Of a stretch of 64,000 nucleotides of DNA, positions 5,967-52,694 are shown one piece after another. Origin of the DNA: Duganella sp. SG902 (lineage in GTDB: Bacteria; Pseudomonadota; Gammaproteobacteria; Burkholderiales; Burkholderiaceae_D); assembly GCF_013376005.1 (NCBI RefSeq), contig NZ_JABMJK010000004.1, positions 248,001 to 312,000 of the forward strand. Reading direction: 5' to 3'. The notes under the pieces are model-generated. The model was not told the origin of the DNA. It searched no databases and saw nothing but the letters and a program-made list of their open reading frames with translations. Positions within the stretch are counted from its first letter, which is position 1, and every line of letters begins with the position of its first letter. The position numbers were made by a program, and so were the translations under genes.

Positions 5967-6807
5967 GCGTCCAACCCAGCTGTTGCCGCGTTAGCGCGCT
6001 GGACGCCGGGCAGTCGGCGGCGAAGAAGCGGCCCAGGAAGCCAAAGTGTTCTGGCGCTTCCGCCGCCGATATGCTGACCACCGGCAGATTCAATCCTGTG
6101 CCGATGGTGGCCGCGATCTCGCGCGTGGCGACGCCTTGTTCGGCGATGGCGTGATACCGCTTGCCTGCCGCACCATGTTCCAGCACCAGCCGGTACAGGC
6201 GCGCGGCGTCGAAGCGATGCACTGCCGGCCAGCGGTTTTCGCCGTCGCCGATATAGGCTGACACACCCTTGGCGCGGGCGATATCGACCAGGCGCGGCGC
6301 AAAGCCGTAATCGCCATCGCCGTGCACGGAAGGCGGCAGGCGCACCAGCGACGAGCGCACGCCGCGCGCGGCCAATGCCAGCGTCAGTTCCTCCGACGCT
6401 GTGCGGTGCTGCGCCGGGCCGCCGAGATCGGGGCCGTCATCCTCCGTGCCGACCACGCCGTGCCTGAGCAGGGCGCTGCCGGAGGTGGTGATCAACGGTT
6501 TGCCGGTGCCGGCCAGCGCGTCACCCATGGCGGCGATGGCGGAGCGGTCGGTTTCGCCGGCGGCGTTGAAGTCCTTGAAGTCGTGAATGAAGGCGGTGTG
6601 GATCACGCCATCGCAGGCGCGCGCGCCCGCCGCCATGCTTTCGGTGTCCGACAAATCGCCGCGATGTACCGGGACGCCGCGACGGGCCAGCAGCTCCGCG
6701 CCCTCCGCGCTGCGCGCCAGTCCCAACACCTCGTGGCCAGCGTCCAGCAATTCAGTGATGACGGCCGAACCCACCCAGCCGGTGGCGCCTGTAACGAATA
6801 CTCTCAT
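5914..6807 (-). CDS. NAD(P)-dependent SDR-family epimerase/dehydrogenase
   Basis: This 297-residue extended-SDR protein begins with a Rossmann dinucleotide motif (VTGATGWVGSAV, i.e. TGxxGxxG). It resembles the NAD-dependent epimerase/dehydratase family members that reduce small carbonyl compounds. The start is chosen at 6807, where an AAGGAG lies six bases upstream; the ATG at 6813 directly abuts that site. It is divergent from an AraC-family regulator at 6904, a common pairing that suggests the regulator controls it. The canonical YxxxK is not obvious in the usual place, so catalytic competence is unclear. The substrate is unknown. Confidence 0.8.
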   Translation of the reverse strand: MRVFVTGATGWVGSAVITELLDAGHEVLGLARSAEGAELLARRGVPVHRGDLSDTESMAAGARACDGVIHTAFIHDFKDFNAAGETDRSAIAAMGDALAGTGKPLITTSGSALLRHGVVGTEDDGPDLGGPAQHRTASEELTLALAARGVRSSLVRLPPSVHGDGDYGFAPRLVDIARAKGVSAYIGDGENRWPAVHRFDAARLYRLVLEHGAAGKRYHAIAEQGVATREIAATIGTGLNLPVVSISAAEAPEHFGFLGRFFAADCPASSALTRQQLGWTPTGPNLIDDLARHYFRG

Positions 6808-6903
6808 GTCCATCTCCTTGTTCAGATGGGAGCATGATAGTGGCCAGCGGTCGGACGATCCATGCTGTAGAATCCGTATTTTCTTCGTGATCGTCCGAAT
6901 GCC

Positions 6904-7815
6904 ATGGATCCTTTATCCGACGTCCTGTCCCTGCTCAAGCCGCGCAGCTACGTTGCGGGCGGCTTCGACGTGGGCGGCGAATGGGCGCTGCAGTTTCACC
7001 AGCACGAAGGCATCAAGTGCTACGCCATCGTCGCCGGCGAATGCTGGCTGGCGGTGGATGGCGTGGAACAGCCGGTGCACCTGAGGACCGGCGATTGCTT
7101 TTTGCTGCCACGCGGGCGTCCGTTCCGTCTCGCCAGCGATCTGTCCCTGCCGAGCGTCAACGCGCTGGAGGTGCTGCGGCAGCGGCGTCTGGGCGGCATC
7201 GGCATCATCAACGATGGCGGCGGCTGTCTGCTGGTTGGCGGCCATTTTGTCTTCAATGGCAAGCACACGGGCATACTGCTGGAGGCGCTGCCGCCCATCG
7301 CGCATGTGCACAAGGAGTCGGACCGCGAGACCCTGCGCTGGTCCCTGCAACGCCTGGCCACGGAACTGCGCGAACAGCGGCCCGGCCACACCCTGATCGC
7401 CCAGCACATGGCGCACATGATGCTGGTGCAGGCGCTGCGGCTGGTGCTGGCGGAAGAAGAGGGCGGCGGGATAGGCTGGCTGTATGCGCTGGCCCATCCG
7501 CAAATCGGCGGCGCCATCGGCGCGCTGCATGCCGATCCCGCGCGGCGCTGGACGCTGGAGACGTTGGCGCGGCATGTGGGCATGTCGCGCTCCACGCTGG
7601 CGCTGAGATTCAAGCAGACCGTGGGCACGTCGCCGATGGAATACCTGACGCGCTGGCGCATGCTGCTGGCGGGTGACCGCCTGGTGCATTCCAGCCAGGC
7701 GGTGTCCGTGATTTCGCAACAACTGGGCTACGAGTCCGACAGCGCCTTCAGCACCGCGTTCAAACGCGTGATGGGCTGCTCGCCGCGCCAGTACGTGCGC
7801 GATCAGTCTTTGTAA
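6904..7815 (+). CDS. AraC-family transcriptional regulator with cupin sensor domain
   Basis: The 303-residue protein has an N-terminal cupin_6-type sensor domain (about residues 8-190; GECWLAVDGVEQPVHLRTGD is typical). A C-terminal AraC double helix-turn-helix covers about 205-300, with LARHVGMSRSTLALRFK and GYESDSAFSTAFKRVMGCSPRQY. It is divergent from the SDR gene across a 96-base gap, so it likely activates that gene. Its 3' end overlaps the convergent UraD-AllC gene by 13 bases. The inducer is unknown. Confidence 0.9.
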   Translation: MDPLSDVLSLLKPRSYVAGGFDVGGEWALQFHQHEGIKCYAIVAGECWLAVDGVEQPVHLRTGDCFLLPRGRPFRLASDLSLPSVNALEVLRQRRLGGIGIINDGGGCLLVGGHFVFNGKHTGILLEALPPIAHVHKESDRETLRWSLQRLATELREQRPGHTLIAQHMAHMMLVQALRLVLAEEEGGGIGWLYALAHPQIGGAIGALHADPARRWTLETLARHVGMSRSTLALRFKQTVGTSPMEYLTRWRMLLAGDRLVHSSQAVSVISQQLGYESDSAFSTAFKRVMGCSPRQYVRDQSL

Positions 7816-9554
7816 TTGCGCAGGAAGTCCAGCAGCACGCGGGCGGCGATGTCGGCGTCGTCGGCCGTCATGGTCTCCAGCGGATTGTGGCTGATGCCGC
7901 CGTTGCCGCAGCGCGTGAACAGCATGGCGACGTCGGTGATGGCGGCCATCGCCATGGCGTCATGGCCCGCGCCGGACAGCAGGTCGAAGCGTGGCAGGCC
8001 GGCGCGCTCGATGGCGTCGCCGAACTGCCGCATCAGGCGCGGCGCGCATGGCGCGGCGCTGGCGTCGACGATCTTCTGCACGCTGTATTCGATCTGCCGG
8101 CGCGCGCAGATGGCGGCGATGCCGTCCAACACATCCTTCACCGCCGCCAGGCGCACCGTATCGTCGGCGGCGCGGATGTCCAGCGACAGCCTGCATGCGC
8201 CGGGAATCACGTTGACCGAGCCACCCGGCACCTGCAACTGGCCGACCGTGCCGACCAGCGAAGGCGCCTGCGCGCAGCGCCGCTCGACCAGTAGCACGAT
8301 TTCCGCCGCCGCCGCCGCCGCATCCTTGCGCATGCTCATGGGCGTGGTGCCGGCGTGGCTGGCCAGTCCGGTCAGCTCGACCAGATAGCGCGAGCTGCCG
8401 GCGATAGCTGTGACCACGCCCAGCGCCAGGTCGCGTTCCAGCAGCACCGGGCCTTGTTCGATATGGACCTCCACGAAGCCCAGCAAGCCGGCCGGATCGC
8501 GCGCGATCGCGGGGATGCGCGCCACGTCATGGCCGGCGGCCAGCAACGCGTCACGCATGCTGACGCCATCGGCGTCGGTCTGGTCCAGCAGCGACAGGTC
8601 GAAGCGGCCGGTTACCGCCGTGCTGCCGAGGAAAGTGCTCTTGAAGCGCACGCCTTCTTCCTCCGCGAAGCCGACGACCTCAAAGTGGAACGGCAGTTTC
8701 TCGCCGCGCTGGTGCAAGTGGCGCACCAGGGCGATCGGCAGCAGGATGCCGAGACGGCCGTCGTACTTGCCACCGTTGCGCACGGTGTCGTAGTGGGAGC
8801 CGGTCATCAGCGTTTTTGCGTCCGGCGCGTCCGAGCGGTAGACGCCGACCACGTTGCCGACCGCGTCGATGTGGGCTTCCATGCCGGCGGCGCGCATCCA
8901 TTCGAGCAGTTGCGCGGCAGTCTGGCGGTGCGCCGGCGTCATGTAGGCGCAGGTGAGTGCGCCGTCGGTGTCATCGCTCCACGCGGCCAGTTCCTCGCTC
9001 CATTGCATGATGGCCGGGCCGAATTCCAGCCGCACCGACAGCAGGTCGTTCAGGCGGATTTCCGCGATGCGCTTGATCTGGCGGAGGCATTCCGCGATTT
9101 CGTCGGCGCGCTGGTTCTTCAACCGGCGCGTGAAGGTGGCGATGATGTTTTGGCGCGTGAGCCCTTGTCCGGTCGGGCCTTTGACGGCGAGGATGAAGGG
9201 AAAACCGAATTTGGCGTTGTAGTCCGCGTTGAGCTGGTGCAGCGTCGCGAATTCCTCCGCGCTGCAAAGGTGCAGGCCGGACTTTGCTTGCTCATTGGTC
9301 GATTCGGCCGTCAACTGGCCGGCGACGGCGGCCTTGCCCGCCAGTTCCGGGTGGGCGCGGATCAGGCCAAGTTGCTCATCCAGCGTGGCGGCGCTGACCA
9401 CGGACTGCAAGGCCAGCTTAAGCGCGGTCTCGTTGGCGAAGGGACGCTGTGCGGCGGCGCGCTCCGGTATCCACGGCGAGTGCTCGTAGATGCCGCGCAG
9501 GCGGTCGACGAAGGTGGCGGTATCGCAGCTATTGAGGTCGGAGAGTGTGGTCAT
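7803..9554 (-). CDS. uraD-allC: fused OHCU decarboxylase - allantoate amidohydrolase
   Basis: One 583-residue chain joins two purine-degradation enzymes. Residues 1-172 are an OHCU decarboxylase (UraD), with catalytic His68 in RAHPELAGK, then STNEQAKSGL and YNAKFGFPFILAVKG. Residues ~175-583 are an M20 allantoate amidohydrolase, with GSHYDT (His254), GGKYDG (Asp265), AEEEGVRF, HIEQGPVLLE, ASHAGTTPM and SGAGHDA. The first half converts OHCU to S-allantoin; the second hydrolyses allantoate, two steps later. The start at 9554 follows GGGAG by five bases; in-frame ATGs at 9557 and 9569 are alternatives. No stop or frameshift lies between the halves, so the fusion is real. It sits beside LysR and puuD. 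Confidence 0.93.
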   Translation of the reverse strand: MTTLSDLNSCDTATFVDRLRGIYEHSPWIPERAAAQRPFANETALKLALQSVVSAATLDEQLGLIRAHPELAGKAAVAGQLTAESTNEQAKSGLHLCSAEEFATLHQLNADYNAKFGFPFILAVKGPTGQGLTRQNIIATFTRRLKNQRADEIAECLRQIKRIAEIRLNDLLSVRLEFGPAIMQWSEELAAWSDDTDGALTCAYMTPAHRQTAAQLLEWMRAAGMEAHIDAVGNVVGVYRSDAPDAKTLMTGSHYDTVRNGGKYDGRLGILLPIALVRHLHQRGEKLPFHFEVVGFAEEEGVRFKSTFLGSTAVTGRFDLSLLDQTDADGVSMRDALLAAGHDVARIPAIARDPAGLLGFVEVHIEQGPVLLERDLALGVVTAIAGSSRYLVELTGLASHAGTTPMSMRKDAAAAAAEIVLLVERRCAQAPSLVGTVGQLQVPGGSVNVIPGACRLSLDIRAADDTVRLAAVKDVLDGIAAICARRQIEYSVQKIVDASAAPCAPRLMRQFGDAIERAGLPRFDLLSGAGHDAMAMAAITDVAMLFTRCGNGGISHNPLETMTADDADIAARVLLDFLRNYKD

Positions 9555-9626
9555 CATAGCTCCCATCATAACGCGCCCGCGCCGCCGCGATATATGCGGT
9601 ATGGCCTAGGGTGTATAAGACTGCGC

Positions 9627-10565
9627 CTATTTCTGCGCCAGCGCCTTGGCGGCGGCGGCCACCTGGTCGCGTAGCCACTTGTGTTCCGGCGCCTGATGCA
9701 CGCGCTCGTGCCACAACTGATAGAAGCGCATCGGCGGGAACTTCACCGGCACCGCATAGGTTTTCAGCGGCATCTGCTTTTCGTAGTGGCGTACGAACTG
9801 GCTGCCGGTGGTCAGCACCAGGTCGGTCTGCGCCAGCATGTTCGGGATCAGGCCGAAGTAGGCCGATTCCACCATCACGTTGCGCTGCAGGCCCTGGCGC
9901 TCCAGGTAGTCGTCGATCACGCCATGGTAGCCGGGCAGGATCTGGGTCGGCGCCACGTGCGGCAGCGTGAGGTAGTCGTCCATCGTCATCTTGTCGCTGG
10001 CGGTGCGCAGCGCATACGGGCAGTCGGCGCGCATCACGCAGATGATGGGGTCCTCGAACAGCTTGGACATGTGGAGGTGCTCGGGCGGCTCGTCCCAGTT
10101 GGCGATGACCAGGTCCATGTCGCCATCCGACAGCAGGCGCACGTAGTCCACGCCCGGCCCGAGGCCGTGGATTTTCACGCGGCTGTTGGGCGAACCACGG
10201 CGCAGCAGCGCAACGAGATTCGGCAGGAACTGGCTGTCCAGGTAATCCGGTGCCGCCACGTGGAACGTGCGCGCTTCCTCCTGTGGCACGAAAGGTGCCT
10301 TCTTCAGGAACAGGTTCTCGGTTTCGTCCAGGATGCGCTTTGCTGGTGCAAGCAGGCTTTCTCCATGCTGGGTCGGCACCATGCCGCGCGCGCCGCGCAC
10401 CAAAAGTGGATCGCCGGTCAGCTCGCGCAGCTTGCGCAGCGAGGCCGAGATCGAGGGCTGCGGTTGATTCAGCTTGAGGGCGACGCGGGAGACGTTTTTC
10501 TCGACCAGCAGCAGGTAGAGAATACGGATCAGGTGGAGGTCCAGGTGTTGCGGCAAAGCGGACAT
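9627..10565 (-). CDS. LysR-family regulator, probably of urate catabolism
   Basis: The 312-residue protein has an N-terminal winged helix (about 8-65, ILYLLLVEKNVSRVALKLN then QPSISASLRKLRELTGD) and a LysR substrate-binding domain (about 95-300). It is divergent from puuD and directly upstream of uraD-allC, which is the usual place for a pathway-specific LysR. The inducer is likely urate or a breakdown product, but nothing in the sequence proves it. The intergenic stretch 10566-10682 holds the probable shared operator. Confidence 0.9.
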   Translation of the reverse strand: MSALPQHLDLHLIRILYLLLVEKNVSRVALKLNQPQPSISASLRKLRELTGDPLLVRGARGMVPTQHGESLLAPAKRILDETENLFLKKAPFVPQEEARTFHVAAPDYLDSQFLPNLVALLRRGSPNSRVKIHGLGPGVDYVRLLSDGDMDLVIANWDEPPEHLHMSKLFEDPIICVMRADCPYALRTASDKMTMDDYLTLPHVAPTQILPGYHGVIDDYLERQGLQRNVMVESAYFGLIPNMLAQTDLVLTTGSQFVRHYEKQMPLKTYAVPVKFPPMRFYQLWHERVHQAPEHKWLRDQVAAAAKALAQK

Positions 10566-10682
10566 GAGAGCGATTGTTTTATACGGGATTGAATATGTCT
10601 AATATACTCCAATGTTCATGTGGCAGGAATCAAATCCGTTTATCTTCTGTAAATTAGCCACATCTTTGACCTAGCAAACTAC
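10566..10682. promoter_or_regulatory. divergent promoter region between LysR gene and puuD
   Basis: This 117-base gap is AT-rich compared with its flanks and holds several TA-rich steps (TTATACGGG, AATATGTCTAATATA) compatible with T-N11-A LysR sites. I cannot pick out one convincing -35/-10 pair. Its role is inferred from the divergent layout. Confidence 0.35.
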
Positions 10683-11891
10683 ATGGAATACCTGATCCCG
10701 TATGGCCTCGAATGGGCCAACCTCCTCGTGCGCTGGCTGCACATCATCACAGGCATCGCCTGGATCGGCGCCTCGTTCTATTTTGTGTGGCTGGATAATT
10801 CGATCCGTCCGCCGGCGCCGGGATCGGAGCTGGCGAAGAAGGGCGTGTCGGGCGAGCTGTGGGCGGTGCATGGCGGCGGCTTCTATAACCCGCAAAAATA
10901 CCTGGTGGCGCCGGCCGAGCTGCCGAAGGAGCTGCACTGGTTTAAATGGGAGGCTTATTCCACCTGGCTGTCCGGCATCGCGCTGCTGACCATCGCCTAC
11001 TACTTCAACGCGCAAGCGATGATGATCGATAAATCGGTGGCGGATCTGAGCAGCCTGCAAGCGGTCGGCATCGGCGTCGGCACGCTGGTTGTCGGCTGGA
11101 CGGTGTACGACCTGCTGTGCCGCTCCCCGCTGGGCAAGCACGATGCGGCGTTCGGCGTGGTGATCTTCGCGCTGATCACCGCCGCCGCGTATGGGCTTAC
11201 CCATGTGCTGAGCGGCCGCGCCGCCTACATCCACGTGGGCGCCTTGATCGGCACCATCATGGTCGGCAATGTGCTGATGCTGATCATTCCCGGCCAGCGC
11301 AAGATGGTGGAGGCCATGTCGGCCGGGCGCATGCCGGACCCGGTGCACGGCCAGAAGGCCAAGCAGCGCAGCGTCCACAATAACTACTTCACGCTGCCGG
11401 TGCTGTTCATCATGATCAGCAACCATTACGCGATGACTTACCGGAACGAGCACGCGTGGCTGGTGCTGGCCTTCATCATGGCCGCCGGCGTGTTCATTCG
11501 CCACTTCTTCAACCTGCGCCACAAGGGCCGCGTGGAATTGCGCTATCCGGCCATCGGCGTGGCGCTGCTGGCCGCCGTGGCGGTGGCGATCGCGCCGGCC
11601 AAGCCGGTGGCGACAGCGCCCGCGGCCGATCCGGCGGCGGCATTCGCCAAGGTGAAAGCGGTGATCGACGCGCGCTGCCTGGCCTGCCACGCCGCGCATC
11701 CAACCCAGCCTGGCTTCGCGGCGGCGCCGCTGGGCGTGGCCTTCGACACGGCGGACCAGGTCCACCAGAACGCCGAGAAAATCTACAAGCAGGTGGTGCA
11801 GACCAAGGCCATGCCGCTGGCTAACCTGACCAATATGACCGAGGCCGAGCGCGCGCAGATCGCCGCCTGGTACGAATCCGGCGCAAAATGA
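10683..11891 (+). CDS. puuD: membrane urate hydroxylase PuuD with C-terminal cytochrome c domain
   Basis: The 402-residue protein matches PuuD, the membrane urate oxidase of proteobacteria. About eight hydrophobic segments start with WANLLVRWLHIITGIAWIGA, and the PuuD signature region VWLDNSIRPP follows. After the last membrane segment (about residue 300) an Ala/Pro-rich linker leads to a c-type heme domain with CLACH at residues 332-336, facing the periplasm and passing electrons to the respiratory chain. It converts urate to 5-hydroxyisourate without making H2O2. The start ATG lacks a strong Shine-Dalgarno. It is followed 10 bases later by an M20 peptidase gene, probably in one operon. Confidence 0.94.
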   Translation: MEYLIPYGLEWANLLVRWLHIITGIAWIGASFYFVWLDNSIRPPAPGSELAKKGVSGELWAVHGGGFYNPQKYLVAPAELPKELHWFKWEAYSTWLSGIALLTIAYYFNAQAMMIDKSVADLSSLQAVGIGVGTLVVGWTVYDLLCRSPLGKHDAAFGVVIFALITAAAYGLTHVLSGRAAYIHVGALIGTIMVGNVLMLIIPGQRKMVEAMSAGRMPDPVHGQKAKQRSVHNNYFTLPVLFIMISNHYAMTYRNEHAWLVLAFIMAAGVFIRHFFNLRHKGRVELRYPAIGVALLAAVAVAIAPAKPVATAPAADPAAAFAKVKAVIDARCLACHAAHPTQPGFAAAPLGVAFDTADQVHQNAEKIYKQVVQTKAMPLANLTNMTEAERAQIAAWYESGAK

Positions 11892-44385: not shown

Positions 44386-46575
44386 ATGATGCAAAGATTC
44401 GTTCGCACCGTTGTGGGTGCCTCTGTGCTGGCCTTGTGCGCCGGCGTGGCCGTATCCGGCACTGAAACAGCCGGCCCGCAAAGCATTCAGTTGAAGGGGG
44501 ACGCCGGCGGGCCGCGTTTCGATGGCATCGGCGTGGTCGATGGCGGCGGCGCCACCTCGGTCCTGCTGAAGGATTATCCCGAACCGCAACGCAGCCAGAT
44601 CCTGGACTTCATGTACAAGCCGAAGTTCGGCGCCTCCATTAGCGCCTTGCTGGTGGAAATCCCCGGCGATGGCAACTCGACGCAAGGCTCGATGCCCAGC
44701 CACATGCACACGCGGGACGACCTGAACTACACCCGTGGCTACACCTGGTGGGTGATGCGGGAAGCCAAGCGGCGCAACCCGGCGCTCTCACTGGACGGCA
44801 CCGCGTGGAGCGCTCCGGGCTGGATCGGCGACAACGGCCAGCGCTTCCCCCATGGCCCGGGCGGCGAACGGGAATTCTTCACGCCGGACGGCGCCGACTA
44901 TTACGTCAGCTGGCTGCAGGGGCTGCGCAAGGTCTACGGCCTGGAGTTCGACGCCATCGGCAGCCGCAATGAAAAAGGCGTGAGCTACGACTTCGTGAAA
45001 GCGCTGCGCGCCAAGCTCGACGCGGGCGGTTTTAGCAAGGTAAGGATCCACAGTTTCGACAACTGGCCTGATGATTCGAAATACGATTTCGTGAAAGACA
45101 TGGCGACCGACGCCGCGCTGCGCGATTCGATCGACATCATCAGCGCGCACGTCAACGTGCTGGACAAGTCGCGCGTGCCGCCAGACGTGCGCGCGGCGGC
45201 CGGCAAGATGGGCAAGCCCTTGTGGAACACCGAGGGGCATGTGTACATCGCCGGCTATGACGGCGCGATCGGCGTGGTGCGCGCCTTCAACGAGAACTAC
45301 ATCCACAACGGCATCACCAAGATCGTCAACTGGTACGGCATCGCCGGCCTGTACACCACCGAGCCGTATCCTGGCGACAAGGAATCCGCCATCCGCGCCA
45401 ACTGGCCGTGGAGCGGCCATTACCGCCTGAATCCGCACGTCTGGGCGTACGCGCACTACGGCCAGTTCACGGAGGTCGGCTGGACCTACCTGAACGGCGG
45501 CAGCGGCGAGCTTGCCGGCGGCGGTTCGTTCGTCACGCTCAAATCGCCGGGCAAGGACTATAGCGTCATCATCGAAACGCGCGAGGCCAAAGGGCCGCAG
45601 CAGATACGCCTTGAAGTCGGCGGTGGCTTGTCGACGCAGGACGTGGCCGTTTGGCAGACCACTGCGCAGGAGCAGTTCGTGCGGCTGGCCGATATCGCGC
45701 CGCGGCAGGGCGTGCTGACGTTGACGCTGGAGCCGAACGCCATCTATTCGCTGACCACCACGCGGGGCCAGCAAAAAGGCGCGTTCCCGGACGTGCCCGC
45801 GCAACAGGCCTTCCCGTTCCCGTACCGGGAAACGTTCGAGCAGTACGCGCGTCCTGAAGAGTGGGGCCATTTGCCGCGCTACTTCGCCGACATCGGCGGC
45901 GCGTTCGAGCTGGCCTCCTGCCCTGGCAAACCAGGAAAATGCCTGCGCCAGGCCGTCCCCGTGCCGTCGCATTCCTGGGCGCCGGACTGGAATCCCTACA
46001 CCATCATCGGCGACGACCAGTGGTCGGACTACGAGGTCAGCGCGGACATCTATCTCAACCCCGGCGAGGTGGCGGGTGTGATGGGCCGCATCAATCACGT
46101 CGGCACCGGTTATGGCTTCATCCCCAAGGGCTACGTCCTGCAACTGAACAGCGCTGGCGAGCTTGAGCTGACGGTCGTGCGCGGCAAGGTGGACAAGAAA
46201 GCGCTGGTGGGCGACGCCGAGCAGCAGGCGCTGATCAAGGCCGAGAACGACGCCAACGAAGGCGGCGAGAAGGTGCTGGCCACCGCGCGCGTGCCAGGCA
46301 TCACGCCCAAGCGCTGGCACAACCTGAAGCTGCGCTTCAAGGGCGACCAGATGACCGGCTTCATCGACGGCAAGCAGGTGGTCACCGCAAAGGATGGCTT
46401 GTACGCGCGTGGGATGGCCGGCGTGATCGCCGGCGCGGACACGAAAAAGGTCAGCATGCCGTATTACGACAACGTGACGATCAACCAGGTCAACGGCCCC
46501 GTGCCGAAGGACTCGAAGCCGAAGCCGGGGCAGGGGCCGATCTACCGCAAGGTCACGGGCGCGGCAGCTTCCTGA
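44386..46575 (+). CDS. secreted GH59 galactosylceramidase-like glycosidase
   Basis: The 729-residue exported protein matches glycoside hydrolase family 59 (galactocerebrosidase). It has a TIM barrel with FDGIGVVDGGGATS at the start, acid/base Glu196 in IGSRNEKG and nucleophile Glu283 in WNTEGH. A beta-sandwich follows, then a C-terminal lectin-like domain (about 490-710). The family removes beta-galactose from galactosylceramide; bacterial members are less studied and may act on other beta-galactosides. A second ATG follows the first. A hydrophobic signal peptide is clear. Confidence 0.9.
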   Translation: MMQRFVRTVVGASVLALCAGVAVSGTETAGPQSIQLKGDAGGPRFDGIGVVDGGGATSVLLKDYPEPQRSQILDFMYKPKFGASISALLVEIPGDGNSTQGSMPSHMHTRDDLNYTRGYTWWVMREAKRRNPALSLDGTAWSAPGWIGDNGQRFPHGPGGEREFFTPDGADYYVSWLQGLRKVYGLEFDAIGSRNEKGVSYDFVKALRAKLDAGGFSKVRIHSFDNWPDDSKYDFVKDMATDAALRDSIDIISAHVNVLDKSRVPPDVRAAAGKMGKPLWNTEGHVYIAGYDGAIGVVRAFNENYIHNGITKIVNWYGIAGLYTTEPYPGDKESAIRANWPWSGHYRLNPHVWAYAHYGQFTEVGWTYLNGGSGELAGGGSFVTLKSPGKDYSVIIETREAKGPQQIRLEVGGGLSTQDVAVWQTTAQEQFVRLADIAPRQGVLTLTLEPNAIYSLTTTRGQQKGAFPDVPAQQAFPFPYRETFEQYARPEEWGHLPRYFADIGGAFELASCPGKPGKCLRQAVPVPSHSWAPDWNPYTIIGDDQWSDYEVSADIYLNPGEVAGVMGRINHVGTGYGFIPKGYVLQLNSAGELELTVVRGKVDKKALVGDAEQQALIKAENDANEGGEKVLATARVPGITPKRWHNLKLRFKGDQMTGFIDGKQVVTAKDGLYARGMAGVIAGADTKKVSMPYYDNVTINQVNGPVPKDSKPKPGQGPIYRKVTGAAAS

Positions 46576-46960
46576 AGATCGCCGACATGGTGGCCGCGTC
46601 CAGCGCCTCCATGTCGATCAGTTTCAGTGACTTCACCATGGACAGCGTGCTGGTCTTGTAGTGTTGAAAGTGAGGCGTCTGGAGGTGCGCCTCATAGGCC
46701 TGGCGGTTGGCGTAAATCTCCAGAATCCTGAACTCGGTATCGTCGTCGCGCTGATACATGGGGAAGATGGCGATCACGCCCGGCTCCAGTCTCACCGATG
46801 CCGCCGCTTCCTCGTGTAGGATTTCCATGTACTGCTTAAGGTGCGCCCGATGCACCTGGATTTCTGAAATACGGACCATCATTTCCTCATTTTGCGCGTG
46901 GCTCATGGCGGAGATCAGTAAGAGACAGGCTGGCAAGCCCCAGGCAAGTAAACGCTTCAT
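46553..46960 (-). CDS. exported antibiotic-biosynthesis-monooxygenase (ABM) domain protein
   Basis: The 135-residue protein has a signal peptide (cleavage after MSHA) and one ABM/quinol monooxygenase domain (VRISEIQVHRAHLKQYMEIL, then MYQRDDDTEFRILEIYANRQ). Most ABM proteins are cytoplasmic, so export is unusual. It overlaps the amidohydrolase stop by four bases and the GH59 gene end by 23. It is the last gene of a five-gene operon. Confidence 0.83.
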   Translation of the reverse strand: MKRLLAWGLPACLLLISAMSHAQNEEMMVRISEIQVHRAHLKQYMEILHEEAAASVRLEPGVIAIFPMYQRDDDTEFRILEIYANRQAYEAHLQTPHFQHYKTSTLSMVKSLKLIDMEALDAATMSAIFRKLPRP

Positions 46961-47988
46961 AATCCCAGCAGCCGTTCCGCGTTGCCATGGGCTACCAGCG
47001 CCTTGTCGGCCGCGCTGACCGGCAAGCCGTCTAGGAAGGCGCGCGCGCCGTCCAGGCTCTGGTAGGGGTAGTCGATGGAATACAGAATGCGGTCCGCCCC
47101 CATCAAGGCGTGGATGAACTGGAAGTGCGGCAGCGTCAGCATGCCGCTGGGCGAGACATGGACGTGTTCGCGGTAAGTCTGCACGATGGGACGACGCAGG
47201 CCGGAAGCCTCCTGTGGGATCGCGTCCTCCAGCCGCTGCAGGAAGAATGGCACCATCCCGCCCCAATGGCCGCTGATGACTTGCAGCCGGGGATAGCGGT
47301 CGAACAGGCCCGCCAGCATCATGCGCACGACCTGCACGCCAGCCTCGTTGTGCCAGCCCCAGCCGAACATGGCCAGCCGCGCGCTCAGCTCCTTGTCGAA
47401 GCCGCCGTAGTAAGGCGCTTGCACCGCCGGCAGCGGCAGGCCGGGATGCACGTACAAAGGCACGCCCAGCGCGTCGAAGGCCGCCAGCACAGGGGCGTGG
47501 CGCGGATCATCCAGGAAGGTGTCGCCCGGGCGTCCGTTGATGAGCGCGCCCTTGAGCCCCAGCACCTGGACGGCCCGCTCCAGTTCGCGCGCGGCGGCCT
47601 CGGGCGCTTGCCAGGGCAGCGCGGCGAAGCCGCCGAAGCGCGTCGGATGGGCTTGCGCCGCCTGCGCCAGCCTGTCATTGGCGGCGCGGCACAGGTCGAT
47701 CGCCCGCGCGGCCGGCAGCAGCTGCGCAAAGCCGCCATAGGACAGCACCTGCATGTCGATGCCGGCCGCGTCCATGTCGGCCAGGCGGCTCGCGCCCATG
47801 TCCAGCGCCTTGCGGGCGGACTCGGCCGGCGCCAGCACGTGCGGACGGCTGGTGTCGGCCACACGCTGGCCATCGATCACGCGGCTGCCCCAGTCGGACA
47901 GGTAGGGCGCCTCGGCCCGCAGCAGGGGCTGGGTGGCCGCGCCGGTGGCGGCGTCGAGCACATGTTCTTCCACGCAGATCAGTTTCAC
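46957..47988 (-). CDS. amidohydrolase-2 (ACMSD-like) family protein
   Basis: The 343-residue metal-dependent hydrolase/decarboxylase resembles ACMSD and gamma-resorcylate decarboxylase: an N-terminal VEEHV in place of the usual HxH, YVHPGLP, ISGHWGG, and Asp in LYSIDYPYQ. These ligands suit decarboxylation or hydrolysis of an aromatic acid. It is 28 bases after the DJ-1/PfpI gene. Confidence 0.85.
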   Translation of the reverse strand: MKLICVEEHVLDAATGAATQPLLRAEAPYLSDWGSRVIDGQRVADTSRPHVLAPAESARKALDMGASRLADMDAAGIDMQVLSYGGFAQLLPAARAIDLCRAANDRLAQAAQAHPTRFGGFAALPWQAPEAAARELERAVQVLGLKGALINGRPGDTFLDDPRHAPVLAAFDALGVPLYVHPGLPLPAVQAPYYGGFDKELSARLAMFGWGWHNEAGVQVVRMMLAGLFDRYPRLQVISGHWGGMVPFFLQRLEDAIPQEASGLRRPIVQTYREHVHVSPSGMLTLPHFQFIHALMGADRILYSIDYPYQSLDGARAFLDGLPVSAADKALVAHGNAERLLGL

Positions 47989-48016
47989 GGTGCCGCCTTT
48001 CCGGTCGCGTTGCCGG

Positions 48017-48712
48017 TCAGGCCAGCAGGGCGTCGCGCAGCGCTTCGCCCAGGCGGGCGGCGGACTGTGGATTCTGTCCGGTGATCAGGCGGCCGTCGAC
48101 CACCACGTTGTCGGCCCAGTTGGCGGCGTTCTGGTGCAGCGCGCCGCGCGCGATCAGCGTGGACGCCAGCAGGAACGGCACCACGTTGGTGGACTGCACT
48201 TCCTCCTCCTCGTCATTGGTGAAGGCCGCCAGCTTTTTGCCGGCCACCAGCAGGCTGCCGTCGGCGCGGCGGGCGTTGACCAGCGCGGCCGGGCCGTGGC
48301 ACACCGCCGAGACGATGCCGCCGGCGGCGTCGATCTCGCGGATCGCCTTTTGCGCGGCCGCATTGTCGGGGAAGTCCCACATGGTGCCGTGGCCGCCGGC
48401 GAAGAAGATGGCCGAATAGCGCGCCGGATCGACATCGTCCAGCGGCAGCGTGTGCGAGATGGCGTGGCGGAAGTCGGCATCGGCCCAGTAGTGGGCGATG
48501 ACAGGATCGTTCATGTCCTCCAGTCCGTCCAGCGGAGCGTCCCCGCCCAGCGGCGAGGCGAATTCAACGCGGATGCCGGCCGCGTGCAGCTTTTCCAGCG
48601 GGTGGGTCACCTCGGCCAGGTTGTAGCCGGTGGGGATGCCGGTCGCTCCCTTGACCGCGTTGCTGGAGACGACGAAGAGGACGGGCTTGAGTTCAGAGGC
48701 TTGCTTGGGCAT
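48017..48712 (-). CDS. DJ-1/PfpI-family (Hsp31-like) protein
   Basis: The 231-residue protein has the nucleophile-elbow cysteine in AVCHGPAALV and upstream Glu in FFAGGHGTMWDFP context, matching Hsp31/YajL-type glyoxalase III or chaperones. It probably detoxifies reactive carbonyls such as methylglyoxal. It is third in the five-gene operon. Confidence 0.88.
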   Translation of the reverse strand: MPKQASELKPVLFVVSSNAVKGATGIPTGYNLAEVTHPLEKLHAAGIRVEFASPLGGDAPLDGLEDMNDPVIAHYWADADFRHAISHTLPLDDVDPARYSAIFFAGGHGTMWDFPDNAAAQKAIREIDAAGGIVSAVCHGPAALVNARRADGSLLVAGKKLAAFTNDEEEEVQSTNVVPFLLASTLIARGALHQNAANWADNVVVDGRLITGQNPQSAARLGEALRDALLA

Positions 48713-48739
48713 GTTTCATATTCCTTCGAAAAAAGAGGG

Positions 48740-49651
48740 TTACAGCTGGCCGAAGAAGGCCGCCAGCCGCGCCACCGCCTGATCGACATAGGCTGGCGTG
48801 TCGTACAGCGCCATGTGGGTGGCGCCGTCGATGATCAGCAATTCTTTCGGCCCGGTGGCCAGCGCGTGAGCCCGCTCGCTGAATACCTTGGTGTCGGCCT
48901 CGCTGCCGGCGACCAGCAGCAGTGGCTGGGTCAGCAGCATCGGCAGCAGGTGGAAGGTGGAGAAGGCGTACATCTTGTCCAGGCTGGTCATCAGGAAACG
49001 CCCCTTGGAGTTCGGATGCTGGCCGCGGGGCGTGCGGTAGTAGTCGTATCCTTCGCGCAGCATGGTGGGCGTATTCCTGTCGATGTCTTCCGGGCGTTCC
49101 GGAACGAAGGGCGCATAGACCGGCGCGGCGCCCCGTGCCTGCGCGGTGCGTTGCGCCGCCGCCGCTTCCAGCGTCCGGATCACGTCGGCGGCGGAGACGG
49201 GCTGGCCGAACATGCTTCGGGCCGCCTCGCCCATCGGCGTCGCGGAGACGCCGGCCACGGCCTTGAAGCGCCGCTCGGTCTGCGCCACCGCCAGCGCGTA
49301 GCCGCCGCCGGCGCACACGCCGAACACGCCCATGCGCTGGTCCGCCACATAAGGCAAGGTGGTGAGAAAATCGGCGGCGCAGCGGGCGTCCTCCACGCGC
49401 GTCGACGGATCCTCCAGCAGGCGTGGCTCGCCGCCGCTGGCCCCTTGGTAGGAGGAGTCATACACCAGCACCACGAAACCGTGGGCGGCCAGCCGCCTGG
49501 CGTACAGGCCGATGGTTTGTTCCTTCACGCCGCCGGCGGGATGAATCCCCACCAGCGCCGGATATTGCCGGTCTTCGCGGAAGTCGGGCGGGAGGTGGAG
49601 ATGCGCCGCGATCTCCACCGCTTTGTTGGCAAATGTGACGGCCTTGATCAT
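48740..49651 (-). CDS. dienelactone-hydrolase-like alpha/beta hydrolase
   Basis: The 303-residue protein has an alpha/beta fold with nucleophile motif GVCAGG (Cys in the serine place, as in dienelactone hydrolase), LVAGSEADTK and a terminal His in DGATHMALYD. The cysteine and the muconolactone-isomerase-like gene beside it suggest an aromatic ring-cleavage or lactone substrate. Start 49651 is 14 bases after the preceding gene; an upstream ATG at 49732 would extend into it. Confidence 0.85.
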   Translation of the reverse strand: MIKAVTFANKAVEIAAHLHLPPDFREDRQYPALVGIHPAGGVKEQTIGLYARRLAAHGFVVLVYDSSYQGASGGEPRLLEDPSTRVEDARCAADFLTTLPYVADQRMGVFGVCAGGGYALAVAQTERRFKAVAGVSATPMGEAARSMFGQPVSAADVIRTLEAAAAQRTAQARGAAPVYAPFVPERPEDIDRNTPTMLREGYDYYRTPRGQHPNSKGRFLMTSLDKMYAFSTFHLLPMLLTQPLLLVAGSEADTKVFSERAHALATGPKELLIIDGATHMALYDTPAYVDQAVARLAAFFGQL

Positions 49652-49665
49652 GGCGGGCCTCCGTG

Positions 49666-49965
49666 TCAGCCGTTGGTGGTGGCGAACAGGCTCTCCCAGT
49701 TCAGGAAAGGCCCCAGCGGAATCACTTCCCAACCGATCAAGCCGGCTTTGGCGAGCGGGAACTCCGCCAGCGCCTGTTTGGCGGCGTCCACCGATTCGGC
49801 CTCGGCGATGATGGCCACGCCCGGACGGTCTTGCCGGAAATAGATGTCGCGCACGAGGCCGTTCTTGTACAGCTGCCAGCCATGGCGGGCTTCGGCGATC
49901 AGGTGCGGTTGGTATTGCTCCATGGTGGCGCCGGGCGCGGGGATGTCGAGGCAGAGCAGTTTCAT
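49666..49965 (-). CDS. muconolactone-isomerase/YciI-like small protein
   Basis: The 99-residue protein has the ferredoxin-like alpha/beta fold of muconolactone isomerase-type proteins (MKLLCLDIPAPGATMEQYQP, ending GWEVIPLGPFLNWESLF). Catalytic residues are not certain. It leads a five-gene operon divergent from a LysR gene. Confidence 0.8.
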   Translation of the reverse strand: MKLLCLDIPAPGATMEQYQPHLIAEARHGWQLYKNGLVRDIYFRQDRPGVAIIAEAESVDAAKQALAEFPLAKAGLIGWEVIPLGPFLNWESLFATTNG

Positions 49966-50088
49966 GATGGGTTCCTTGCTTAAGTCAGCGATTAAAAAGA
50001 GATGCCGTTGTCGCCCAAAATTCACCTTTGGGCACGTCACGGATATGTTAAAGTAGAAAAATACTACGCAATGTAGAAAGATATTCCC

Positions 50089-51042
50089 ATGTCGGAAGAC
50101 TCAAATTCGCCAATGTTTCGCGGCGCCAGCATGCCGGGCATCCAGGAAAGGTTCGACGGCGTCACCGTGTTCGTGGAGGCGGTAAGGCTGGGCAGCTTCG
50201 CGCGCGCGGCCGAACACCTCGGCTTGACGCGCTCGGCGGTCGGCAAATCCATGGCACGGCTGGAGGCGCGGCTGGGCACGCGCCTGTTCCATCGCACCAC
50301 GCGCGCGCAAAGCCTGACCGACGACGGCCAGATCTACTATGAGCATTGCCTGCGGGCCCAGGCGGAGCTGCAAGCGGCCGAGGCGCAGATGGCGTCCGGC
50401 CGCCACGAGGTGGCGGGGCGCCTGCGCGTGTCCATGCCGGTGCTGTTTGGCCGCCGCTGCGTCGCCCCCATCCTGCTGGAGCTGGCGCGGCAGCATCCGT
50501 CGCTGGAGCTGAGCCTGAGTTTCAGCGACCGACCGGTCGACGTGCTGGCTGAAGGCTTCGACCTCGCCATCCGCTGCGGCGTGCTGGGCGCCGAAAGCGA
50601 GGGGCTGCGCGCGCGCAAGCTGGCGGTGCTGCGCAAGAAAGTGTGCGCCGCGCCGGCTTACCTCGCCGCGCATGGGGAGCCGCGCGGCAGCGCCGAGCTG
50701 GCGGCGCACAGCATCCTGATCTATCGCCGGGCCGACCGTATCAACACCTGGCAGCTGCCCGACGCCAGCGGCCGCATCACCGACCTGCCGCTGGCCTCCC
50801 GCTTGCAGCTCGACGACCTGGAGGCGATCGCCGATGCCGCCGTCGCCGGGCTGGGATTGGCGTGGCTGCCTGAATGGCTGGTGCGCGAGCGCTTGCGGAG
50901 CGGGGCGCTGGTCAGCGTCATGGACGACCAGCCCGGCGCCAGCATGGATTGCCACGCCTTGTGGCCGGCGGCGTCGCATGTGCCCTTGCGCCTCAGGCTC
51001 GCGGTCGATGCGCTGGTGGCGCGGCTGCCCGCGCTGGCCTGA
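50089..51042 (+). CDS. LysR-family regulator of the divergent catabolic operon
   Basis: The 317-residue protein has a LysR helix-turn-helix (FVEAVRLGSFARAAEHLG, then TRSAVGKSMARLEARLGTRL) and an effector domain of the PBP2_CrgA type. It is divergent from the operon starting at 49965. Repeats GTAGAAA in the gap (about 50052-50080) and the AGTA...TACT dyad are plausible LysR sites. Confidence 0.9.
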   Translation: MSEDSNSPMFRGASMPGIQERFDGVTVFVEAVRLGSFARAAEHLGLTRSAVGKSMARLEARLGTRLFHRTTRAQSLTDDGQIYYEHCLRAQAELQAAEAQMASGRHEVAGRLRVSMPVLFGRRCVAPILLELARQHPSLELSLSFSDRPVDVLAEGFDLAIRCGVLGAESEGLRARKLAVLRKKVCAAPAYLAAHGEPRGSAELAAHSILIYRRADRINTWQLPDASGRITDLPLASRLQLDDLEAIADAAVAGLGLAWLPEWLVRERLRSGALVSVMDDQPGASMDCHALWPAASHVPLRLRLAVDALVARLPALA

Positions 51043-51055
51043 GGTGGCGGCCGGA

Positions 51056-52162
51056 TCACCGTGGTAGAAACGGATAGTCAATGTAGCCCACCGCGTCGTC
51101 GGGACCGGGCTGATAGAAGCTCGGATAGTCCGGCGTGTTCAGTGGCGCGCCACGCCGCAGGCGCTCCGGCAGGTCGGGGTTGGCGAGGAAGGGCACGCCA
51201 TACGCGATCAGATCGGCCTGGCCCGCCTTGATGGCGGCTTCGCCCAATGGCGCGTCATAGCCGCCGTTGAGCATAATCGCGCCTGAAAACACCCGGCGCA
51301 AATGCGGCGCGACGGGTTCCACTGTGGCGGGCAATTTTTCCTCCCCCGCGACCGGCTCGGCCACGTGCAGATAGGCGATACCCAGCTTGTCCAGCTGCGC
51401 CGCCAGATAGGTGAACGTGGCCACCGGATCGCTGTCGTGCATGCCGTGCAGCGTGAGGTTGGGGCCAACGCGATAGCCGACGCGGCGCGCGCCCAGCACC
51501 GCCGCGACGGCGGCGGCCACCTCCAGCGGCAGGCGCGCGCGATTAGGAATGCTGCCGCCGTATTGATCGGTGCGGATGTTGGAGCCGTCGCGCAGGAACT
51601 GATCGAGCAGATAACCCGAGCTGCCGTGTATTTCGACGCCGTCGAAGCCCGCGAGGTCGGCGTTGCGCGCCGCCGCCCGGAATTGGTCGACGATATCCGG
51701 CATCTCATCGGTTCTCAGCGCGCGCGGCACGCCGACCGGCACCCGCCGGCCGCCCGCGATGAAGACGTCGCCCACGCCCTTCAGCGCCGACGGGGCGACC
51801 GGCAGCTCGCCGCCATGAAACTCCGGATGCGAGATGCGGCCCACGTGCCAGAGCTGGGCAAAAATCACCCCGCCGGCTTGGTGCACCGCATCGGTGACAC
51901 GGCGCCACGCGGCAATCTGGTCGGCGCTGTGGATGCCCGGCGTGCGGATATAACCGACGCCCTGCTGGCTGACCTGGGTCGCCTCCGAGATGATGAGGCC
52001 GGCGCTGGCGCGCTGTGCGTAGTAGGTCGGCGCCAGCGGGTGCGCGAGGTTGCCTTCCACCGCGCGGCTGCGTGTCATGGGCGCCATGACCATGCGGTTC
52101 CTGAGCGACAGCTCGCCCAGTTGGTAAGGAGAGAAAAGGTGGTTTAAATCGGTGTTTGCCAT
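51056..52162 (-). CDS. Old Yellow Enzyme family alkene reductase
   Basis: The 368-residue FMN enzyme matches OYE/NemA: MAPMTRSRA, QLWHVGRISHPEF, EIHGSSGYLLDQFLRDGSN, RTDQYGGSIPNRARL and GYDAPLGEAA near the end. The His/Asn(His) pair that binds the substrate carbonyl is His then Ser here (HGSS), a mild departure. It reduces activated C=C bonds with NAD(P)H. The divergent HxlR regulator likely responds to the same electrophiles. Confidence 0.93.
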   Translation of the reverse strand: MANTDLNHLFSPYQLGELSLRNRMVMAPMTRSRAVEGNLAHPLAPTYYAQRASAGLIISEATQVSQQGVGYIRTPGIHSADQIAAWRRVTDAVHQAGGVIFAQLWHVGRISHPEFHGGELPVAPSALKGVGDVFIAGGRRVPVGVPRALRTDEMPDIVDQFRAAARNADLAGFDGVEIHGSSGYLLDQFLRDGSNIRTDQYGGSIPNRARLPLEVAAAVAAVLGARRVGYRVGPNLTLHGMHDSDPVATFTYLAAQLDKLGIAYLHVAEPVAGEEKLPATVEPVAPHLRRVFSGAIMLNGGYDAPLGEAAIKAGQADLIAYGVPFLANPDLPERLRRGAPLNTPDYPSFYQPGPDDAVGYIDYPFLPR

Positions 52163-52194
52163 CTTGATCCAATTGCGCTGAGGTGAATGGGGAT

Positions 52195-52208
52195 ATTGCG
52201 TCAGCAAT
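52195..52208. promoter_or_regulatory. inverted repeat between alkene reductase and HxlR genes
   Basis: ATTGC and GCAAT flank GTCA. Placed between divergent starts (gap 52163-52256), it is a candidate HxlR operator. Confidence 0.4.
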
Positions 52209-52256
52209 CGCGTGTATTATTGCCAGCGCTCCAAACCACCACAAGAAGGCACATTC

Positions 52257-52694
52257 ATGTCACCTGGTCACATTCCACAGCCGCTGCCTTGCACCGAGTT
52301 CACGCGCGAATTGCTGAGCCGTGTCGGCGATAAATGGAGCATCTTGATCGTTGTCCATCTGGAGCAGGGGCCGTTGCGATTCAACGAACTGAAGCGTAGC
52401 ATCGGCGGCATATCGCAGCGCATGCTGACGTTGACGCTGAAGAGCCTGGAGAAGGACGGGTTGGTATCGCGTACGGTGTTTCCCACCATCCCGCCAAGCG
52501 TCAGCTATGAGCTAACCGAACTGGGACGGACCTTGATGCAGCCGATGATGGCCTTGGTCCTGTGGTCGAAGAATTATCAGGCGGAGGTGGAGGCGGCCAG
52601 GGCGCGCTATGAGGAAAAGCAGGCCGACGCGGTGAGCGTCGGACCGGACGGCATGCTATCGACGGCGACGGGTTTGATCAGGCGGATGAAATAA
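52257..52694 (+). CDS. HxlR-family transcriptional regulator
   Basis: The 145-residue winged-helix protein has the HxlR features VGDKWSILIVVHLEQGPLRF, ELKRSIGGISQRMLTLTLK and YELTELG. HxlR proteins often sense quinones or aldehydes and sit beside reductases. The only cysteine in the conserved N-terminal place (PCTEF) may be the sensor. AAGAAGG precedes the start. Confidence 0.92.
   Translation: MSPGHIPQPLPCTEFTRELLSRVGDKWSILIVVHLEQGPLRFNELKRSIGGISQRMLTLTLKSLEKDGLVSRTVFPTIPPSVSYELTELGRTLMQPMMALVLWSKNYQAEVEAARARYEEKQADAVSVGPDGMLSTATGLIRRMK

Follow-up and report, generated by a model that had tools for sequence, protein, structure and literature searches.

The nemRA-gloA system of Escherichia coli links a regulator to a set of enzymes that detoxify carbonyls and quinones (PMC5297802). 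We analysed a locus that is in kind like such electrophile operons but differs in content, regulator and exported partners: five consecutive genes, A to E, with a divergent LysR-type regulator gene, in Duganella sp. SG902 (contig NZ_JABMJK010000004.1, positions 248,001 to 312,000; this whole stretch of 64,000 nucleotides is the window, and coordinates are counted from its first letter unless another locus is named). The cluster would likewise be a regulator-linked set of carbonyl- and quinone-detoxifying enzymes. Whereas NemR is of the TetR type, the window has a LysR protein (PF00126, PF03466), and where nemRA-gloA has glyoxalase I the window has an Hsp31-type protein; counterparts of A, D and E are not named in the accessible part of PMC5297802. 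An old yellow enzyme gene adjoins the LysR gene of the window, yet lies outside the five-gene run. MdaB and YgiN of E. coli form a quinone redox pair, in which an ABM-fold quinol monooxygenase stands beside a quinone reductase and YgiN is cytosolic. Quinone-reductase-like and ABM genes also stand side by side in several of the loci compared below, whereas in the window the ABM protein, E, has a signal peptide and the gene run includes no quinone reductase.

On balance we lean towards reading the locus as a mix-and-match cluster, LysR-controlled and patchily distributed, for the disposal of electrophiles. These would most likely be quinones and alpha-oxo or unsaturated aldehydes, either made by the cell itself or coming from plants and competitors. 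Judging from the loci compared, the association of A, C and D exceeds chance, the three genes being kept together across three proteobacterial classes. Inducible electrophile disposal appears favoured over growth on an aromatic compound, because the usual companions of the core are quinone-reductase-like and carbonyl-reductase-like genes and an Hsp31-type protein, with no ring-cleaving oxygenase among the annotated recurring neighbours. Searches of the open-access literature, judged by titles and abstract openings, found no paper describing the cluster.

The gene run, its core and its partners

The run comprises, in the order of transcription, gene A (49666–49965; 99 amino acids), a muconolactone-isomerase/YciI-fold protein; B (48740–49651; 303 amino acids), a YcjY/PA2218-type alpha/beta hydrolase with a cysteine, C113, at the nucleophile position; C (48017–48712; 231 amino acids), an Hsp31/glyoxalase-III-type DJ-1/PfpI protein; D (46957–47988; 343 amino acids, GTG start), a cog2159-type decarboxylase-like amidohydrolase; and E (46553–46960; 135 amino acids), an ABM-family protein that starts with a signal peptide. 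A, C and D are core members, B and E optional ones. The five-gene run with a divergent LysR gene (50089–51042, plus strand) described in the initial annotation is borne out, since all five reading frames are open and lie on the minus strand, with gaps of 14 (A/B), 27 (B/C) and 28 (C/D) bases and a 4-base overlap of D and E (ATGA, the start of E lying over the stop of D); 123 bases separate A from the LysR gene. At its 3' end, gene E overlaps that of a convergent 729-amino-acid reading frame (44386–46575) by 23 bases (46553–46575).

An alignment search of GTDB contigs with D gave 86 loci, of which the best 80 were kept, and 81 loci, the window among them, were mapped by profiles, using home-made gene calling; the loci were gathered through D, so modules without D fall outside the survey. 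Forty-two were counted as module loci, including four added by hand as members of the D clade with neither A nor C nearby (L069, L076, L097 and L126), and two long branches of that clade lacking A and C (L127 and L108) went to the group of 39 other D loci. The core of LysR, A, C and D recurs in Beta-, Gamma- and Alphaproteobacteria: A, C and D lie near each other, mostly with LysR too, in Duganella, Collimonas, Pelomonas, Rhizobacter, Paraburkholderia, Pseudomonas, Xanthomonas, Paracoccus, Brucella grignonensis, Serratia, Rahnella, Rouxiella, Pantoea, Rodentibacter and Aggregatibacter. Extra genes can separate the three, and A is on the opposite strand in L060 and L062. In a midpoint-rooted tree of 77 D proteins (omitted, here and from the residue counts for D, were L082, L106 and L111, with an internal stop in D, and L129, in which a contig end truncates D), one clade of 42 rows with support 98/98 takes in every row that has A and C (31) or C alone (5), together with 6 that have neither nearby; the 35 rows outside it likewise lack A and C.

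Within 5 kb of D, the module loci contain C in 38 cases, ABM in 33, LysR in 33, A in 32, SDR in 19, AKR in 15, CMD in 13, KefF-like in 12, WrbA-like in 11, QOR in 11, DUF1330 in 9, a WYL regulator in 8, and B and ADH in 5 each; three of the 33 ABM matches score below 50 bits (L059, L067 and L126). Over the same distance the 39 other D loci have LysR in 10, SDR in 4, AKR in 2 and ADH in 1, and none has A, C, ABM, CMD, KefF, WrbA, QOR, DUF1330, WYL or B. A and C partly define the split between the two groups, the remaining families do not, and the enrichment of ABM in module loci (p 8e-15) is indicative only, the rows being related and kinship uncorrected. A quinone-reductase-type gene lies within 7 kb of D in 28 of the 42 module loci as against 3 of the 39 others. 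The KefF-like, WrbA-like, QOR, YdjG-like and Ahr-like assignments are best NCBIfam matches, all under the curated cut-offs; by these the AKR proteins come nearest to the methylglyoxal reductase YdjG and the ADH proteins to the aldehyde reductase Ahr. Neither the 16 mapped families nor the recurring neighbours that were annotated include a ring-cleaving or ring-hydroxylating oxygenase, gene clusters of only two or three loci being annotated in part. Rare neighbours include a histidine kinase, RNase R, an MFS transporter, a HEAT-repeat protein and a molybdopterin aldehyde-oxidase-type protein.

The optional members change place. In the window, as in two Pelomonas loci, B separates A from C, and in the Paracoccus locus L072 it has its place between C and D; in Duganella sp. 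BJB480, the nearest relative, B is missing and an SDR gene takes the position of E. The ABM genes nearest to E of the window are found in two other family genomes (61 % identity) and in a Neisseria module (51 %), and the Pelomonas modules have a different ABM gene, past LysR, at 37–38 % identity to E. Because the ABM genes of the window and of Pelomonas differ in kind and place, ABM genes were probably recruited more than once, which would argue for a functional link. The initial annotation had left room for the set not being conserved together: this proved wrong for the core of LysR, A, C and D, and partly right for B, found no further than 5 kb from D in 5 of the 42 module loci, and for E of the window.

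Among 195 genomes of the family, 20 have a D-like gene (E-value up to 1e-40), 7 have A and 8 have E, and A and D are found together in G000, G028, G061, G117 and G175, being adjacent with C in four besides the window. At the same cut-off just one of the 12 genomes from the genus has D, and A occurs, among 369 sampled genomes of the class, solely in the window's own genome, so that the cluster is rare and patchy and no general trait. A long form of it is carried by a 214-kb plasmid of Enterobacter mori (NZ_CP119171.1, L133), where RefSeq gives the order hypothetical protein, type 1 glutamine amidotransferase domain protein, AKR, amidohydrolase, NAD(P)H oxidoreductase, AKR, DUF1330, NAD(P)H oxidoreductase, ABM and CMD; five further plasmid records match D. 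From the patchy spread we infer movement between species, against which it must be said that the E. mori plasmid examined is typed non-mobilizable. Other arrangements encountered were a tandem pair of A genes in L072 (454–1111) and two variant clusters without C and D, one in L041 (about 7282–11400; LysR / KefF-A-B-AKR) and one in L044 (about 6063–10300; ADH-B-CMD-ABM-DUF1330).

The proteins and their nearest relatives

Protein A falls under the Pfam gathering cut-offs of both families considered, YCII (PF03795; 17.3 versus 24 bits) and MIase (PF02426; 16.3 versus 26.7 bits), although the YCII profile matches 26 of 33 A ortholog rows at an E-value of up to 1. A phmmer search with the A sequence gave chance-level matches only, and the top match of a profile search was TftG, a chloro-hydroxyhydroquinone enzyme, at an E-value of 0.031, by itself not significant. 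An AlphaFold2 model of A, built from the 33 orthologs (mean pLDDT 92), has as its top structural matches, among the matches listed, ClcF, which is a chloromuconolactone isomerase (Z 12.3), the YciI protein HI0828 of Haemophilus (Z 11.5) and TftG (Z 11.2), unrelated structures scoring about 8. The earlier label 'isomerase-like' is thus upheld by the fold but not at the level of Pfam families, and identity to the three proteins is no more than 14–23 %. Residues E25, R39, Y42, R44 and D46 are among those invariant across the 33 rows, and, to judge from the profile offset and a PDB title, E25 may correspond to Glu27 of ClcF.

Protein D is an Amidohydro_2 protein (126.8 bits, cut-off 26.4). It had been called ACMSD-like, which holds for the superfamily, but D is closer to 5-carboxyvanillate decarboxylase (E-value 1.8e-49) and gamma-resorcylate decarboxylase (6.5e-46) than to the best ACMSD (1.9e-21); the nearest solved protein is the amidohydrolase 3nur, of unstated function and from Staphylococcus, and these two decarboxylases follow. 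Decarboxylation of a hydroxylated acid is probably the chemistry of the D family. In gamma-resorcylate decarboxylase Glu8, His10, His164 and Asp287 are metal ligands, and His218 and Glu221 are said to activate Asp287 (PMC5601192); in iso-orotate decarboxylase the carboxylate group is held by the counterparts of His218, Arg229 and Asp287 (PMC6305744). With the gamma-resorcylate and 5-carboxyvanillate decarboxylases (cog2159) D has in common the metal ligands (E7, H9 and D306 in 77 of 77 rows, H181 in 76), the catalytic His and the carboxylate-binding Arg (H241 and R252 in all 77 rows, both placed to bind the carboxylate), but D of the window has Gly for the Glu of the proposed Asp-His-Glu triad. 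At this position, 244 (codon 47257–47259), the other 76 of the 77 rows have E; the match of G244 to Glu221 derives from GHWG(G/E) versus GHMGE in the alignment to 5-carboxyvanillate decarboxylase. The codon is GGG in the window versus GAG in Duganella sp. BJB480, a one-base difference that could also reflect a sequencing error. The substitution prompted us to consider D as a pseudogene, an idea we rejected since dN/dS against BJB480 (0.174 for D; 0.157 for C, 0.193 for LysR and 0.234 for A) indicates that D is still constrained.

The labels given initially to the remaining three proteins (Cys-hydrolase, DJ-1/PfpI and ABM) agree with Pfam scores above the cut-offs. B matches Dienelactone hydrolase (PF01738) with 40.3 bits (cut-off 21), its nearest solved structures being YcjY and PA2218. 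The catalytic triad of dienelactone hydrolase is Cys-His-Asp, and C113 and H279 of B are invariant in 7 rows. A lead to PA2206, suggested by the resemblance of B to PA2218, was dropped, as a search of PMC3557286 for the two terms found neither PA2218 nor quinone. Protein C matches DJ-1_PfpI with 58.8 bits (cut-off 26.6), and its nearest solved proteins are ones of the ThiJ/PfpI type and a glutathione-independent glyoxalase III from Candida (4lru, E-value 3.9e-26). The residues E34, C138 and H139, found in C of the window and each conserved in 35 or more of the 36 rows, make up the same Glu-Cys-His site as in E. coli Hsp31 (HchA)/glyoxalase III, whereas the closest solved relative of C, the ThiJ/PfpI-family protein 4p5p, has no stated activity. 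Since Glu, Cys and His are the active-site residues of Hsp31 (PMC5297802), C is, by its predicted active site, of the Hsp31/glyoxalase III type.

Protein E matches ABM (PF03992) with 56.5 bits (cut-off 23.1) and begins with MKRLLAWGLPACLLLISAMSHAQ, which both visual inspection and a crude script mark as a typical Sec signal peptide; the relatives of 61 % identity from two family genomes share its start with the leader, the alignment running from residue 3. Export of an ABM protein had seemed unusual, an impression that does not hold within the cluster: the script flags 26 of 36 ABM proteins in module loci, together with 22 of 25 CMD, 8 of 11 DUF1330 and 0 of 33 A proteins. It over-calls, also flagging C (10 of 38), SDR (7 of 24) and YCII-type proteins (1 of 6), mostly probably falsely, and the ABM count takes in weak ABM matches; many ABM leaders are nonetheless evident by eye. 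Two ABM domains per protein are found in Enterobacterales, Pasteurellaceae, one Xanthomonas (L061) and L086. In or beside modules we also observed flavodoxin-fold proteins with twin-arginine leaders (L075, 16479–17099; L097, 13643–14254; and, assigned by profile only, L086, 11112–11870) and AKR proteins with export leaders, Tat-like in L091 (8474–9421) and Sec-like in L097 (14265–15311), the latter gene being split over two reading frames.

Regulator, candidate operator and flanking genes

The best NCBIfam match of the LysR protein is YafC-like and under its cut-off. The stretch between A and LysR contains TTTCTACATTG and TTTCTACTTTA, and two TTTCTACWTT repeats form a candidate operator at 50049–50079 (minus strand). 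This spaced repeat pair occurs once in the window and in none of 100 shuffles, and a search of the 6.8-Mb genome for its 31-base form, tolerating up to 3 mismatches, gives a single site. The repeat block is kept in Duganella sp. BJB480 and partly in two Collimonas, where a WrbA-like gene comes first after the block. Since the motif is unique in the genome and conserved in relatives, it suggests a dedicated local regulator. A scan of 46400–52400 with the sigma-70 consensus returned no promoter-like site, and the same region has 2 terminator-like sites, both on the plus strand, compared with an average of 3.5 in shuffles.

Directly past LysR lie the NemA-like old yellow enzyme gene (51056–52168, minus strand) and, divergent from it, a gene for an HxlR-family regulator, the pair occupying 51056–52694; in none of the other loci mapped (81 in all) are both present. 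The HxlR-type regulator has a cysteine close to its N-terminus (PCTEF), as in quinone-sensing relatives.

Electrophile disposal and competing explanations

Considering a potential mechanism of electrophile disposal, the LysR protein would sense an electrophile or its product and turn on A–E via the TTTCTAC repeats. C would then hydrate alpha-oxoaldehydes to hydroxy acids, or repair adducts, without a cofactor; D could take the carboxyl group off a hydroxy-aromatic or quinoid acid, A could isomerise or dehalogenate the resulting lactone or hydroxyquinone by ClcF/TftG-like chemistry, B might open a lactone or ester by means of its cysteine, and E may act on (hydro)quinones in the periplasm prior to their entry. 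The substrates, the inducer, co-transcription and the order of reactions of A–E are inferred from sequence. The initial annotation had proposed breakdown of an aromatic or quinone with removal of reactive carbonyls; of this, carbonyl removal fits the Hsp31-type C, the YdjG-like AKR, the Ahr-like ADH and the three quinone-reductase-like kinds, whose matches lie under the cut-offs, whereas breakdown of an aromatic is the weaker part, given the annotated recurring neighbours.

Several observations weigh against electrophile disposal. The families are broad, and relatives of A, B, D and CMD also work in aromatic catabolism. Within 7 kb of D, a quinone-reductase-type gene is missing from 14 of the 42 module loci and any SDR, AKR or ADH from 12, and the window locus itself has neither a quinone-reductase-type gene (WrbA, KefF or QOR) nor an SDR, AKR or ADH over that distance. 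The presence of A and C near D takes at least 5 changes on the D tree, so the core is not kept throughout the clade. Moreover, so few genomes hold A together with D (5 of the 195 in the family, 1 of the 12 in the genus) that the system appears dispensable. Finally, the E244G substitution may weaken the D enzyme of the window, the activity of which is in doubt because Gly replaces the triad Glu.

The strongest competitor, which we nevertheless think unlikely, is a catabolic pathway for an aromatic acid or a (chloro)hydroquinone, in which D would serve as the decarboxylase and A as an isomerase or dechlorinating enzyme, with B hydrolysing a dienelactone-like product and C clearing stray carbonyls. 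The fold of A, like that of ClcF, TftG and muconolactone isomerase, would suit such a pathway, as would the dienelactone-hydrolase type of B with its Cys, the similarity of D to LigW and gamma-resorcylate decarboxylase, and CMD partners that match PcaC models, under the cut-off. However, the oxygenases that cleave or hydroxylate rings are missing from the mapped families and from the annotated recurring genes (within the partial annotation given above), and the commonest partners are reductases and small leadered proteins.

Less probable still is a defence against reactive chlorine and other oxidants (HOCl, HOSCN, chlorinated aromatics or chloramine products), parallel to the Rcl and NemR systems. 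CMD-family and ABM proteins with leaders recur, and relatives are carried by Aggregatibacter, Lautropia and Rodentibacter, which live in mouths or on mucosa; judged by name, however, the carriers are in many cases soil or plant bacteria. It would be in keeping with such a defence that NemR senses chlorine species too (PMC5297802) and that RclX is described as a putative peroxiredoxin (PMC7464077). That ABM, SDR, cyclase-like and hydrolase genes beside a regulator tailor a quinone-type natural product we regard as very improbable, for although ABM and SDR families are frequent in such clusters, neither a synthase nor a carrier-protein gene is among the annotated recurring neighbours (2 loci have an MFS transporter gene near D), and the core has differing neighbours in three classes and on a plasmid.

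Returning to electrophile disposal, we tentatively suggest that the cluster may provide a hitherto undescribed two-compartment defence, with a cytoplasmic arm (A, C, D and the quinone-reductase-like and carbonyl-reductase-like proteins) and a periplasmic arm of exported ABM, CMD and DUF1330 proteins, to which flavodoxin-like and AKR copies with leaders might, just as tentatively, be added in some Pasteurellaceae, a Rahnella and an unclassified proteobacterium. If so, such a defence would trap quinones and carbonyls ahead of their entry into the cell, and the working of nicotinamide- and flavin-type enzymes in the periplasm would become a testable question. If the cluster does dispose of electrophiles, a conserved stress cluster of three proteobacterial classes would have gone unnamed owing to vague gene labels, and orphan families (muconolactone-isomerase-like proteins, leadered ABM, CMD and DUF1330 proteins, and a decarboxylase-like amidohydrolase) would be joined in one function, pointing to a defence in the periplasm that meets quinones and carbonyls there.

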